A stretch of 60,047 nucleotides of DNA. Source: Armatimonadota bacterium. Its GTDB lineage: Bacteria; Armatimonadota; Fimbriimonadia; Fimbriimonadales; ATM1. Below are positions 30,837 through 35,876 of the stretch, in pieces. The notes beneath the pieces are model-generated. The model saw nothing but the letters and a program-made list of their open reading frames with translations. It was not told the origin of the DNA and ran no database searches. Position numbers and translations under genes: made by a program. Position 1 is the first letter of the stretch. The number at the start of each line of letters is the position of its first letter. Location of the stretch: assembly GCA_021324165.1 (NCBI GenBank), contig JAJPJR010000049.1, positions 1-60,047 on the forward strand, written 5' to 3'.

Positions 30837-32108
30837 TTAACGCGCCCTGACTCGGGAAAGTTTCGAGGCGGCTTCGGCGGCCAAGACGACGTTCGAGAGA
30901 AGCATGGCGACGGTCATGGGGCCGACTCCGCCTGGGACGGGAGTGATGGCCGAGGCGATTTTGGAGGCGGATTCGAATTCGACATCGCCGACATCGGTCG
31001 TTCGACCTTCGAGTTTGTTGTATCCGGCATCGAGCACAACGGCTCCGGGTTTGATCCAATCACCTTTGATCATCTCGGGCTTGCCGACGGCGGCGACCAG
31101 GATGTCGGCCGTGCGGCAGAGTTCGGGCAGGTTTTGGGTTTTGCTGTGCGCGATGGTGACGGTGGCATCGCGTTCGAGCAGCATGAGTGCGCACGGCTTT
31201 CCTAAGATGACGCTTCGGCCGACGACTACCGCGTTTTTTCCTCGGCATTCGATGTTGTATTCATCCAAGATGCGCATCATTCCGAGGGGAGTGGCGCAGC
31301 GAAAACCTTCGAGCCCTGCGGTGAGCCTTCCAAGAGATTGCGGCGTGATTCCATCAACATCTTTGTTTGCGCCCAGCGTTTCAAGCGCTTCGGATTCGTT
31401 CAGATGTTTTGGCAGCGGGTGTTGGATGAGCACTCCATGAACTTCGTCGTTTGCATTGAGTTCGCGGATTTTTTCGAGGAGTTGGGACTGCGTGGTTGAA
31501 TCATCAACGGCGAAAAGTTCTCCGCCGATTCCGATCTGTCCGCCCCATTTGCGCTTCATTTTCACGTAGGCGACAGAGGCGGGATCGTTGGCCGCCATGA
31601 GCACATCGAGCCGAGGATTGATGCCAAGCTCGGCGACTCTCTGTTTGAGTTGTTCGCGGATTTTGGCGCTCAAAGATTTGCCGTCGAGGATGACGGCTTT
31701 GCTTTGAGTTTTTGAGCGGAGCGCGGCTCCCAGAATGCCGTTGATGAACGCACCGCTTTGTTCGGTGCTGAACTTTTTGCCGAGTTCCACGGCTTCATCT
31801 ATGGCGACGGCGGGCGGGATTCCGGTGGAATGATTGATTTCGAACATCGCAACGCGAAGAATGGCGAGATCAACGGCTGCGATTCTGTCGAGCGCATATC
31901 CGTGCGAGATCGCCGCGATTTCATCATCTATGATTGAACGGTTGTTGATGACGCCTTGGCAAAGGTGTTTGGCGTAATCTTCGGCGTTTGCGGAATCGGG
32001 TTCGCGCGCCGATTCGAACGCCTGTTCGAACGAGCAGTTGGACACATCCATCTGATACAGCGTTCTGAGCGCCCATTCCCGCGACTTTCTTCGTGATTTT
32101 TGGTTCAT
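30837..32108 (-). CDS. nusB-folD: NusB-FolD fusion protein
   Basis: One uninterrupted 423-residue frame joins two normally separate proteins. Residues 1-135 are NusB, the antitermination and rRNA-transcription factor (REWALRTLYQMD, AVDLAILRVAMFEI, VAIDEAVELGKKF). Residues 140-423 are FolD, methylene-THF dehydrogenase/cyclohydrolase: PASVAYVKMKRK (catalytic Tyr and Lys), GVLIQHPLPKHL (Gln), NKDVDGITP (Asp), VVVGRSVILGKPCALMLLER (NADP site) and TAVVLDAGYN-like ending GAVVLDAGYNKL. All catalytic residues are present. The linker is about 6 residues (RSKTQS). Its ATG overlaps the accC stop (32105-32108). nusB and folD are frequent neighbours elsewhere; fusion is unusual as far as I know. Confidence 0.93.
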   Translation of the reverse strand: MNQKSRRKSREWALRTLYQMDVSNCSFEQAFESAREPDSANAEDYAKHLCQGVINNRSIIDDEIAAISHGYALDRIAAVDLAILRVAMFEINHSTGIPPAVAIDEAVELGKKFSTEQSGAFINGILGAALRSKTQSKAVILDGKSLSAKIREQLKQRVAELGINPRLDVLMAANDPASVAYVKMKRKWGGQIGIGGELFAVDDSTTQSQLLEKIRELNANDEVHGVLIQHPLPKHLNESEALETLGANKDVDGITPQSLGRLTAGLEGFRCATPLGMMRILDEYNIECRGKNAVVVGRSVILGKPCALMLLERDATVTIAHSKTQNLPELCRTADILVAAVGKPEMIKGDWIKPGAVVLDAGYNKLEGRTTDVGDVEFESASKIASAITPVPGGVGPMTVAMLLSNVVLAAEAASKLSRVRAR

Positions 32109-33466
32109 GCGACTGGGCTCGGTTCGGAAACGTATCGCGCGACGAACTGTGTATCCACATCGCCGGAAACGAATTCGGGCGTAGCGACGAGGGTTCGAAG
32201 AAACGGGATGTTGGTGTGAATGCCTTGGACATCGAACTGTTCAAGAGCGCGGGCGAGCGACCGGACACATGATTGCCGATCGGAATCGGATACGATCAGT
32301 TTTGCGATCATCGGATCGTAGAACGGGGAGACTGCGAACCCTTTGTACACGTGGGTTTCGAGGCGGATGTGCGGGCCGGAGGGGGGCGCCCAGTGGGTGA
32401 TTTTTCCGCACGAGGGCGCGAACTCTTTGGCGGGGTTTTGCGCGGTGATGCGCGCTTCGATGGAATGGCCTTGAATAGCGATATCGTGCTGTTCGAACGG
32501 AAGCTCTTCGCCCGAAGCGATGCGCAGCATCTGCTCGACGATATCAACTCCGGTTACCTGTTCGGTGATCGGGTGTTCCACTTGCAGGCGCGTGTTCATT
32601 TCGATGAAGTAGAAGTTGTTGCTTGAATCCAGAAGGAATTCGACGGTGCCTGCATTAACGTAGCCGACCGATTTGGCGAGCCTAACGGCGCTTTCGCCCA
32701 TTTTGCGGCGCAGTTCGTCGTCAATAACGGCGCATGGCGCTTCTTCGATCATTTTTTGGTGGCGCAGGTTTTGCACTGAGCATTCGCGCTCGCCCAGATG
32801 AATGCAGTTTCCGAACGCATCGGCCAAAACTTGGATTTCCACATGCCTTGGAGATTCGATCAGTTTTTCGATATACAGATCGCCGCTGCCGAAACTCGCA
32901 AGCGCTTCTTGCGAGGCGATTTTGAATGCTTCGTCCATCTCTTCTTCGCGCGCGACTTTTCGAATGCCGCGCCCTCCGCCGCCTGCTGCGGCTTTGACGA
33001 GCACAGGAAAGCCGATTTCGCGGGCGATTTCGAGTGCATCTTCCAGGTGATGCACGCATCCTTCCGATCCTGGCACGACGGGGCAGTGCGCTCGGATCGC
33101 GGCGGCTTTTGCCGCGGCTTTATCACCCATGCGCGAAATCGCTTCAACGGGAGGCCCGATGAATTTTAGGCCGACCGCGTGACAAGCATCGGCGAACTGA
33201 CTTTGTTCAGAAAAGTATCCATAGCCGGGATGAATGGCGTCGCATTGCGTTGTGAGCGCGGCCATCAGCACGTTGGGCATATTTAAATATGTATCGGAAT
33301 TGGGGCCTGGGCCGATGCAAACTGAGCGGTCTGCCATACGCACGTGAAGACTTTCGGAATCGGCAAGACCGTAAACGGCCACAGTTTCGACTCCCAAGTT
33401 TTGGCAGGCGCGGATGATTCGGCAGGCGATTTCGCCGCGGTTGGCAATGAGAACTCGTTTCAGCAT
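32105..33466 (-). CDS. accC: Acetyl-CoA carboxylase biotin carboxylase subunit AccC
   Basis: This ATP-grasp subunit carboxylates the biotin of BCCP in the first step of fatty-acid synthesis. There are 453 residues, a normal length. It begins LKRVLIANRGEIACRIIRAC. HPGYGYFSEQSQFADAC, VLVKAAAGGGGRGIRKV (Gly-rich ATP loop), HVEIQVLADAFGNCIHLGER, FIEMNTRLQVEHPITEQVTG (catalytic Glu, Asn, Arg) and GHSIEARITAQNP are all present. ATG directly follows the stop of the prepilin-like gene, and its stop overlaps nusB-folD, so expression is coupled. Confidence 0.97.
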   Translation of the reverse strand: MLKRVLIANRGEIACRIIRACQNLGVETVAVYGLADSESLHVRMADRSVCIGPGPNSDTYLNMPNVLMAALTTQCDAIHPGYGYFSEQSQFADACHAVGLKFIGPPVEAISRMGDKAAAKAAAIRAHCPVVPGSEGCVHHLEDALEIAREIGFPVLVKAAAGGGGRGIRKVAREEEMDEAFKIASQEALASFGSGDLYIEKLIESPRHVEIQVLADAFGNCIHLGERECSVQNLRHQKMIEEAPCAVIDDELRRKMGESAVRLAKSVGYVNAGTVEFLLDSSNNFYFIEMNTRLQVEHPITEQVTGVDIVEQMLRIASGEELPFEQHDIAIQGHSIEARITAQNPAKEFAPSCGKITHWAPPSGPHIRLETHVYKGFAVSPFYDPMIAKLIVSDSDRQSCVRSLARALEQFDVQGIHTNIPFLRTLVATPEFVSGDVDTQFVARYVSEPSPVA

Positions 33467-33826
33467 TCAGTATTTCTCGTGGCCGGGATGAATGCAACTC
33501 ACGGTTTGCGTATCCACATCGAGCACGTAGTTTTCCCCGCCCACGGGACATTTCAAAAGTTTCGGCGGCACATTGAGCTGAGAAAGCGAAGTAACTTTTT
33601 CTTCGTCGGCGTGCTGCATCATCAGGAATTCGCGAAGTTGGCCAAGATTGGTTCGACATTCATCATCGCGGGCTTTGAGCACCGCGCGGCCGAGGGTGGA
33701 CTTGCCAAGTTTATCGGCACGGTCGGATGTGCCGCTTCCGCCATAAAGATAGGCAGCGGCGATGGCGATGATCGCAATGACCACAAGCATTCCGATGAGC
33801 GTGAAGTATCCTCGCTGTCTTTTCAT
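33467..33826 (-). CDS. Type IV prepilin-like protein without Glu5
   Basis: There are 119 residues. The N terminus MKRQRGYFTLIGMLVVIAI has a short basic leader, then a hydrophobic helix as in class III/type IVa prepilins (consensus G/FTLIE). Cleavage after Gly6 would leave Tyr first, and the position expected to be Glu5 is Gly. The mature part is soluble, with three Cys (residues near 57, 92 and 110: DDECRTNL, LLKCPVGG, SCIHPG) and the CPVGG motif seen in small pseudopilin-like proteins. ATG overlaps the BCCP-like stop (33823-33826). Its place inside an acetyl-CoA carboxylase operon is odd. Confidence 0.72.
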   Translation of the reverse strand: MKRQRGYFTLIGMLVVIAIIAIAAAYLYGGSGTSDRADKLGKSTLGRAVLKARDDECRTNLGQLREFLMMQHADEEKVTSLSQLNVPPKLLKCPVGGENYVLDVDTQTVSCIHPGHEKY

Positions 33827-34203
33827 TTTGCGCGCACCTTCGCAATGGGCTGTGCATACTCTACCGGATCGCCGTCGTTTAAGAAAAACTGTTCGAGCAC
33901 TCCATCGGCGTCGGCGAGGACTGGATTGGAAAGTCCGAGCGATTCGATTTCGGCGATGACGGCGCCTCTTTTCAGCGGCTGTCCCAAGTTCTGCTGGGCC
34001 GGGTGAAAATAGCCGACCATCGGGCTTTTGACGATTCTTTCGACGGGTTCGGAAACCAGCGCGGCATCGCGTGTTTCGATTGGACCCGGCGTTGAAGGAA
34101 GGGCGATCTTGATCTCTTTTGCGGCAGTTTTGTAGCGCGCGAACGACAGCCGATTGCGCTTTGCGGCTTCGATGAGCTGTTCGATATCGCTCGCAGGTTT
34201 CAT
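33823..34203 (-). CDS. accB: BCCP-like protein (AccB position) lacking the biotinyl lysine
   Basis: There are 126 residues. The layout matches AccB: an N-terminal helix (IEQLIEAAKRNRLSFARYK), a short linker, then the biotinyl/lipoyl hammerhead starting RIVKSPMVGYFH and closing NDGDPVEYAQPIAKV. At the tip, where AccB has EAMKM, this protein has ESLGL, so the Lys that carries biotin is Gly. The domain is otherwise intact and the gene lies upstream of accC as accB does. It cannot be biotinylated at the usual site. It may be a regulatory or structural stand-in, similar in concept to plant BADC proteins; a true BCCP would have to be encoded elsewhere. Confidence 0.83.
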   Translation of the reverse strand: MKPASDIEQLIEAAKRNRLSFARYKTAAKEIKIALPSTPGPIETRDAALVSEPVERIVKSPMVGYFHPAQQNLGQPLKRGAVIAEIESLGLSNPVLADADGVLEQFFLNDGDPVEYAQPIAKVRAK

Positions 34204-35303
34204 ATTTTCAGTCTAAACACGCAGAACTCTACGAGTTTGAGGAGTTGTGAAAGCACGAACATCATGATGCAAAACAGAAAGATCTCTTCGAGAATGCCGT
34301 TGCCGGGGCCAATAGCGACGTCGTGAGCCAAATCGCCGCCAGCCGAAAACGTGAACTTGTTCATCGAAGTGTCGAACTTTTGGATGAGCCTTCCCGATGA
34401 TTCGAGCAGCTGCGCATGCAGCCCGACGTAAAACAGGCCGACCGCAACGAACACGACCGGAACCATGAGTTTGTATTTGTGTTTTTGGTGTTCGTTATAG
34501 ATGATGCATTGCCGGCACCGTTCGGCTTTGTGGCTGGGCGGTAGTTTCATGTTATAGGGGATGAACTTCGCGGCCGCGACGGCGTCTTTGGGAATGATTT
34601 TTCCTTCCATGGCGCCGCGGATGACTTCTTCTTCGCACATGCAGCCCACGCGTTCACGCCAGCAGGTTCTTCGCGAATGGTAGATGGGGCATTGTTCGCG
34701 GACGAACTTTCTGCAAAACGGCAGCTGCCAGCATTTGCCCATGAACACATTGCGATAATCTGACTCTTCTTTGACACCTTTGCCGTATTTGACAAGATCG
34801 CCTTTTGAGCCATAGATGACGCGGAACTTGACACGCGCATACGCATCAATCACTTGCAAAATGATCGCATAGGCTCCAAGATACATGCCAGCCAGCGAAA
34901 GCGAAGCGATCGCTTTGTTTGCGACGGCAAGGTTTTCGCTGGAGCCGGCTTGACCTGTGAGCGCTTCCATCCACCATGTTGCGGTGAACAGCGCCACCGC
35001 AAGCACAAAAAGGGTGAGCGGCAATGCGATGTCGCTCCAAAATCGCGCAGTCATTCCGAGCGCGAACACCAACACACCTGCAATCAGCATTTTTTGCAGG
35101 ACTTCGATGTAGTTGTTTGCCGTTGAGAGTTCTTTTTCAAGATATCCGCCGGAACTGAACTTGAAGGCGTAAAAGATCAAGCCCGCGATTCCGATAACGG
35201 TGATGCCGCCTCCCACCCAAAGCGCCTTTTCGCCGAGCCATTCCAAAACGGTTGCGGCCCAGTCTCCTGTGCGCACGCTGCTTGTCGTATCTCTTTGCGA
35301 CAT
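34200..35303 (-). CDS. Membrane protein with cytoplasmic Cys-cluster domain
   Basis: There are 367 residues. Three or four hydrophobic segments lie in the first 160 residues (ALWVGGGITVIGIAGLIFYA, MLIAGVLVFALGMTA, LPLTLFVLAVALFTATWW, SLAGMYLGAYAIILQVI). A soluble loop of about 120 residues then contains nine Cys: KCWQLPFCRKFVREQCPIY, RTCWRERVGCMCEEE and ERCRQC. Two more helices end the chain. The spacing suggests metal or Fe-S binding; no known motif fits exactly. I recognise no family. It sits between efp and the BCCP-like gene, with a 4-base overlap to the latter. Confidence 0.75.
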   Translation of the reverse strand: MSQRDTTSSVRTGDWAATVLEWLGEKALWVGGGITVIGIAGLIFYAFKFSSGGYLEKELSTANNYIEVLQKMLIAGVLVFALGMTARFWSDIALPLTLFVLAVALFTATWWMEALTGQAGSSENLAVANKAIASLSLAGMYLGAYAIILQVIDAYARVKFRVIYGSKGDLVKYGKGVKEESDYRNVFMGKCWQLPFCRKFVREQCPIYHSRRTCWRERVGCMCEEEVIRGAMEGKIIPKDAVAAAKFIPYNMKLPPSHKAERCRQCIIYNEHQKHKYKLMVPVVFVAVGLFYVGLHAQLLESSGRLIQKFDTSMNKFTFSAGGDLAHDVAIGPGNGILEEIFLFCIMMFVLSQLLKLVEFCVFRLKI

Positions 35304-35306
35304 TGG

Positions 35307-35876
35307 TTATCCTCCGGTTTGCGTCCGTTCTAAGTATTCGTCGGTTCGGGTGTCCACTTTAATGACGTCGCCCACGTTGATATGGAACGGCACGGTTATG
35401 GTCGCTCCGCTTTCAAGTTTGGCGGGTTTGCCGCCGGTTACGGTATCGCCTTTGAAGCCGGGATCAGTTTCCACAACTTTCTGCTCCACAAAATTGGGAA
35501 GCTCGAGGCCGAAAACTTGGCCGTCAACCACCACCGCCTGGACATCCATTCCTTCGATTAAGTACGCGGCGCGGTCTCCAAACATTCCCACAGGAAAGTG
35601 ATGCTGCTCGAAGTCGTCCATATCCATGCACACCACTTCATCGCCCGAGCGGTAAAGGAACTGCATCTTTTTTCGTTCGACGTAGGCCGACTCGATTTTC
35701 TCTCCGGCACGGAAGGTTTTTTCCAGGTTTTGACCCGTTTTTAGTTTTCGCAGTTTTGTTCTGACGAACGCCCCGCCTTTTCCGGGTTTGACGTGTTGAA
35801 ACTCGACGATGGAGTAAACCTCTCCATCCAGATAGATGCACATTCCCGTGCGAAAATCGCTGGTATCCGATGCCAT
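35307..35876 (-). CDS. efp: Translation elongation factor P
   Basis: EF-P relieves ribosome stalling at poly-Pro. There are 189 residues, a normal length, with KOW/OB/OB layout. The tip loop reads HVKPGKGGAFVRTKLRKL, with Lys at the position modified by beta-lysylation in some bacteria. IESAYVERKKMQFLYRSGD and VIKVDTRTDEYLERT are family segments. The Cys-rich membrane protein starts 3 bases after its stop. A -10 element close to its ATG suggests its own, nearly leaderless, transcript. Confidence 0.97.
   Translation of the reverse strand: MASDTSDFRTGMCIYLDGEVYSIVEFQHVKPGKGGAFVRTKLRKLKTGQNLEKTFRAGEKIESAYVERKKMQFLYRSGDEVVCMDMDDFEQHHFPVGMFGDRAAYLIEGMDVQAVVVDGQVFGLELPNFVEQKVVETDPGFKGDTVTGGKPAKLESGATITVPFHINVGDVIKVDTRTDEYLERTQTGG

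Follow-up and report, generated by a model that had tools for sequence, protein, structure and literature searches.

A putative non-catalytic AccB paralog without the biotinyl lysine, encoded beside accC in Fimbriimonadales and other Armatimonadota

We identified a gene for an AccB paralog of 126 amino acids (pBCCP; 33,823–34,203, minus strand) that has Gly in the position of the biotinyl lysine. It lies in the window, by which we mean the whole 60,047-nucleotide stretch of DNA analyzed. The gene is under purifying selection, is linked in an operon to accC and coexists with a real AccB in the same genome. We consider it probable that pBCCP is a dedicated non-catalytic AccB paralog, which joins the AccC-AccB subcomplex and sets the assembly or activity of acetyl-CoA carboxylase (ACC) in a manner similar to that of the plant BADC proteins.

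The pBCCP open reading frame begins with ATG and overlaps each of its neighbors by 4 bp. The motifs RIVKSPMVGYF, IESLGLSNP and NDGDPVEYAQP can be read in the translation. The E-[AS]-M-K biotinyl lysine is absent, as codon 90 (33,934–33,936, minus strand) is GGA and encodes Gly, giving E-S-L-G-L versus E-A-M-K-M. Assignment to the AccB family was based on Pfam, NCBIfam, a family profile and structure prediction with AlphaFold2. The Pfam Biotin_lipoyl family matches at 29.4 bits (cut-off 22.1). AccB (TIGR00531) is the top NCBIfam match, at 40 bits versus an equivalog cut-off of 115.2, which is a weak test of AccB membership because the canonical AccB of this genome also scores only 97. A profile of the pBCCP family aligned over the whole length of Escherichia coli BCCP (4HR7), starting at the N-terminal helix and reaching the final residue (E 6.3e-22), and its consensus over the biotinyl lysine of 4HR7 is a residue other than Lys (Gly).

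AlphaFold2, using an alignment of 45 sequences, gave a model of pBCCP with a mean pLDDT of 90, in which the linker is less certain. When this model was searched with Foldseek, E. coli BCCP 1BDO was the best match (E 1.9e-6) and 4HR7 was also among the best structural matches. The protein consists of an N-terminal helix (residues 3–16), a hairpin (strands 21–25 and 30–34), a linker (approximately 37–53) and a biotinyl-domain fold (54–125). Retention of the N-terminal helix and hairpin module is indicated by the alignment to 4HR7 and by the AlphaFold2 prediction, and the beta-sandwich fold of the biotinyl domain is present according to the model and the Foldseek matches. Thus, pBCCP resembles AccB (TIGR00531; 4HR7/1BDO) in its whole-length profile match, its fold and its operon slot, and differs from it in score and in the absence of both the biotinyl lysine and the thumb. 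Judged by its sequence, pBCCP is plainly an AccB by descent, but with the lysine and the thumb absent it would not be an AccB in function.

The genome from which the window derives (2.33 Mb, 97% complete) encodes a canonical AccB on a different contig (C70, locus L129), with an N-terminal module, a thumb and the motif EAMKV. An earlier note on this DNA, made from the sequence alone, had anticipated that the true BCCP is supplied from another locus of the same genome, and this is the case; the C70 gene rules out the alternative that there is no second BCCP. Genes for the carboxyltransferase, accA and accD, are on contig C21. Only two biotin carboxylases were identified in the genome. One is the AccC of the operon (453 amino acids; 32,105–33,466, minus strand), which scores above the TIGR00514 equivalog cut-off. 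The second is on contig C33 (L040:5095–6977) and is followed directly by an AccB-like carrier protein with EAMKM. These two proteins are likely part of an acyl-CoA carboxylase, and a 576 amino acid frame on contig C12 may be the carboxyltransferase that works with this biotin carboxylase. Two proteins match the biotin/lipoate ligase family (BPL/LplA), a family that covers both BirA and lipoate ligases.

The paralog encoded in the accB slot is a near-constant feature of the order. Of 113 genomes, 105 had a match to the pBCCP query, and the slot paralog was recovered from 106 when a profile was used. Most of the genomes in which it was not found are incomplete assemblies; the others are two 1.5-Mb genomes from one genus and a 94% complete genome encoding a canonical AccB. 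The two reduced 1.5-Mb genomes (G067 and G068) also have no clear thumb-type AccB, and an AccC-like protein remains in them. The residue at the lysine position is Gly in 105 of the 106 orthologs and Thr in the other, within the motif L-G-[IL]-x-N-[DE]. The mean pairwise identity among these orthologs is only 33%, and thus we conclude that the nearly invariant Gly reflects constraint. Almost no displaced lysine was found in columns -4 to +5 of the 106 orthologs (there is one Lys, at +2). The thumb segment is 8–11 residues long in all 106, versus 16 in 39 of 39 canonical AccB proteins. Both the replacement of the target lysine in an otherwise AccB-like domain (ESLGL for EAMKM) and the conservation of Gly in relatives, as proposed or looked for in the earlier note, are borne out by these counts; the order-wide loss of the thumb goes beyond it, as does the wide variability of the target residue across the phylum (see below).

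Pairwise dN/dS values for the slot paralog have a median of 0.15 and a maximum of 0.31 (83 pairs), so the gene is not decaying, and columns of the helix and hairpin vary less than those of the linker. It is very improbable that pBCCP is a relic, i.e., an accB that was no longer needed once a second accB existed and is now drifting away. The genome does encode a second, intact AccB, and many different residues occupy the target position outside the order. However, the slot gene is kept in 106 of 113 genomes with dN/dS of about 0.15, a value that rules out decay within the order, and the Gly motif is conserved despite the low mean identity. Even less credible, with no observation in its favor, is the reading that a normal accB was altered by a sequencing error or by a recent mutation, to which lysine-bearing relatives would have pointed according to the earlier note. 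It is ruled out by the Gly in 105 of 106 orthologs and by the missing thumb.

Searches recovered a canonical AccB-type protein from a locus other than the slot in most genomes of the order. The canonical AccB query matched in 109 of 113 genomes, which is an upper bound because in a few genomes the sole match is the slot paralog or the match is weak. There was no match to this query in four genomes; in three of these, the family profile recovered the slot paralog and nothing else. Genomes G042, G051 and G066 (89–96% complete) encode a Gly-bearing slot paralog, and a canonical AccB was not detected in them; EAMK proteins of the acyl-CoA-carboxylase type were read in G042 and G066. A gap in the assembly or a replacement of AccB may lie behind this.

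All genes of the operon are on the minus strand. The first encodes an efp-like protein (elongation factor P by sequence, from which alone the name derives; 35,307–35,876), followed by a gene for a Cys-rich protein of 367 amino acids (34,200–35,303), pBCCP, a pseudopilin-like gene, accC and a nusB-folD fusion. The Cys-rich protein has apparent hydrophobic segments, and no confident Pfam or NCBIfam family was found for it. Its gene is conserved upstream of the slot paralog, near efp, in much of the phylum, the exception being family f2. The pseudopilin-like protein (119 amino acids; 33,467–33,826) has an N-terminal methylation-like segment and a C-terminal CPVGG...CIHPGHE, and its gene is kept between the slot paralog and accC both within the order and in the wider phylum. 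The nusB-folD fusion is a single reading frame of 423 amino acids (30,837–32,108); NusB and FolD are separate open reading frames in several relatives (e.g., L124–L127).

The pilin-like gene and accC are found beside the slot paralog at 86 of 103 loci from the order. At the other 17, accC is not nearby; most of these are from family f3, in which the 367 amino acid gene still adjoins pBCCP. Linkage of pBCCP to accC is therefore not universal, because the slot gene of family f3 no longer adjoins accC. In family f2, the slot paralog keeps accC and loses the 367 amino acid neighbor. At 20 loci from the phylum outside the order, efp occurs at 19, accC at 18, the pilin-like gene at 17 and the 367 amino acid gene at 15. 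Given these counts, the ancestral order was, most simply, efp (at its head), the 367 amino acid gene, the slot BCCP, the pilin-like gene, accC, nusB and folD.

The same neighborhoods bear on the possibility that pBCCP has left ACC and serves as a scaffold for the pilin-like and 367 amino acid proteins (e.g., in membrane attachment), with the biotinyl fold used as a binding domain. We consider this unlikely. It would account for the pilin-like gene between pBCCP and accC at most loci, and for family f3, where pBCCP has kept the 367 amino acid gene and not accC. However, the reverse is the case in family f2, the AccB-type N-terminal module is retained, and the one reduced genus without the slot gene is also without a clear thumb-type AccB.

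We searched 291 genomes of the phylum and sampled 62 slot proteins across families, along with the second BCCP from many of the same genomes. The target residue of the slot proteins is Lys in 27, Arg in 13, Gly in 11, His in three, and Thr, Asp, Asn and Ser in two each. The lysine is kept in 39 of 39 canonical AccB proteins of the phylum and in four of four AccB proteins from other phyla. A search beyond the phylum with the single pBCCP protein recovered four ordinary, Lys-bearing AccB proteins encoded beside accC, from other phyla. A tree of slot paralogs and AccB built without the target column separates the canonical AccB proteins (SH-aLRT 89) from the slot paralogs (83), each forming a single group. 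Going by this tree, the accB-slot paralog is a lineage separate from canonical AccB across the phylum. Except for one long-branched sequence from family f4, the sampled members of the order cluster together with support (95), and every member of this cluster carries Gly. Within the slot group, the tree requires no fewer than 14 switches between Lys and other residues, a number that is indicative, because many inner branches are weak and the direction of change was not inferred.

The Lys-bearing slot proteins (27 of 62; their loci are among L193–L264) may still be biotinylated, giving two biotin carriers per genome, and thus the function of the slot protein may differ between lineages. For the phylum as a whole, we give even weight for and against the proposal that a second, non-catalytic BCCP in the core fatty-acid operon is a standing ACC subunit, the biotin role of which ceased to be required early on and then disappeared repeatedly, as a parallel to plant BADC.

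How pBCCP might act is suggested by studies of other systems. In Chloroflexus, an eight-stranded barrel built from N-terminal hairpins of BCCP links dimers of biotin carboxylase (BC) and increases their activity, an effect for which the core is not required (PMC11077971). Plant BADC proteins, which have no biotinylation motif, bind both BC and BCCP and act as a glue between them (PMC11926652). Given these precedents, the missing lysine and the retained assembly module, we propose that pBCCP is a non-catalytic subunit or regulator of AccC-AccB. Located in the accB position beside accC, with the biotin-carrying AccB encoded elsewhere, pBCCP cannot carry biotin and has also lost the thumb. Its helix, beta-hairpin and biotinyl fold would allow it to join the AccC-AccB subcomplex, either by co-assembly of hairpins or by taking the place of BCCP on AccC. 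In this way, pBCCP would set how acetyl-CoA carboxylase assembles and how active it is, as BADC does in plant plastids. A hairpin contact of the Chloroflexus type may not apply, because E. coli BCCP-BC contacts reportedly involve the side of the core opposite the thumb (PMC11926652). The suggestion of the earlier note that pBCCP may occupy or tune the AccC complex is consistent with where the gene lies in the operon, with its retained N-terminal module and the purifying selection acting on it, and with the pattern across the phylum.

We infer that pBCCP physically binds AccC or AccB. As to the direction of its effect, also inferred, we lean toward promotion of assembly rather than dilution or inhibition of activity. 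The opposite direction would make pBCCP a competitive brake, taking BCCP places on AccC or on AccA/AccD without bringing biotin, so that more pBCCP means lower ACC flux. This is a less probable explanation. In its favor, an AccB fold and N-terminal module are kept without the lysine, co-transcription with accC would couple the brake to the enzyme, and the first in vivo studies of plant BADC were interpreted in terms of an inhibitor (PMC11926652). However, order-wide fixation and co-expression with accC are explained no less well by a structural subunit, and reconstitution of plant BADC favored glue over inhibitor (PMC11926652). Sequence cannot separate glue from brake.

The non-catalytic subunit that we favor has several partial parallels. 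Like pBCCP, plant BADC is a BCCP relative without the biotinylation motif that keeps the BCCP fold and coexists with BC and a true BCCP (PMC11926652), the latter encoded separately in the same genome in both cases. Unlike BADC, pBCCP is bacterial, is encoded in the accC operon, has a Gly fixed within the order and has a shortened thumb. The slot paralogs group beside the phylum's own AccB (SH-aLRT 83, in a tree that holds no plant sequences), which favors an origin independent of BADC. In the features examined pBCCP resembles BADC, but we do not classify it as a BADC. The fused BC-BCCP (BC1) of Chloroflexus aurantiacus uses the N-terminal beta-hairpin of BCCP as a BC assembly module (PMC11077971), as proposed for pBCCP, but in BC1 a biotinylated BCCP forms one polypeptide with BC, whereas pBCCP is a free subunit without the lysine. 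Among known bacterial ACC regulators, GlnB/PII, which reportedly binds BCCP (PMC5080355), and YqhY of Bacillus subtilis (PMC5437119) are small non-catalytic proteins reported to be tied to control of ACC or lipid synthesis; they are unrelated to pBCCP, and neither is a paralog of BCCP.

In a 2025 paper, BADC was called unique to plants (PMC11926652), and we found no report of a biotin-less bacterial BCCP counterpart in the open-licence literature searched. In these genomes, an accB gene that adjoins accC cannot be assumed to encode a biotin carrier. A bacterial counterpart of BADC that is fixed in an order, with many apparently independent losses of the lysine, would provide natural replicates for the question of whether such proteins glue or inhibit.
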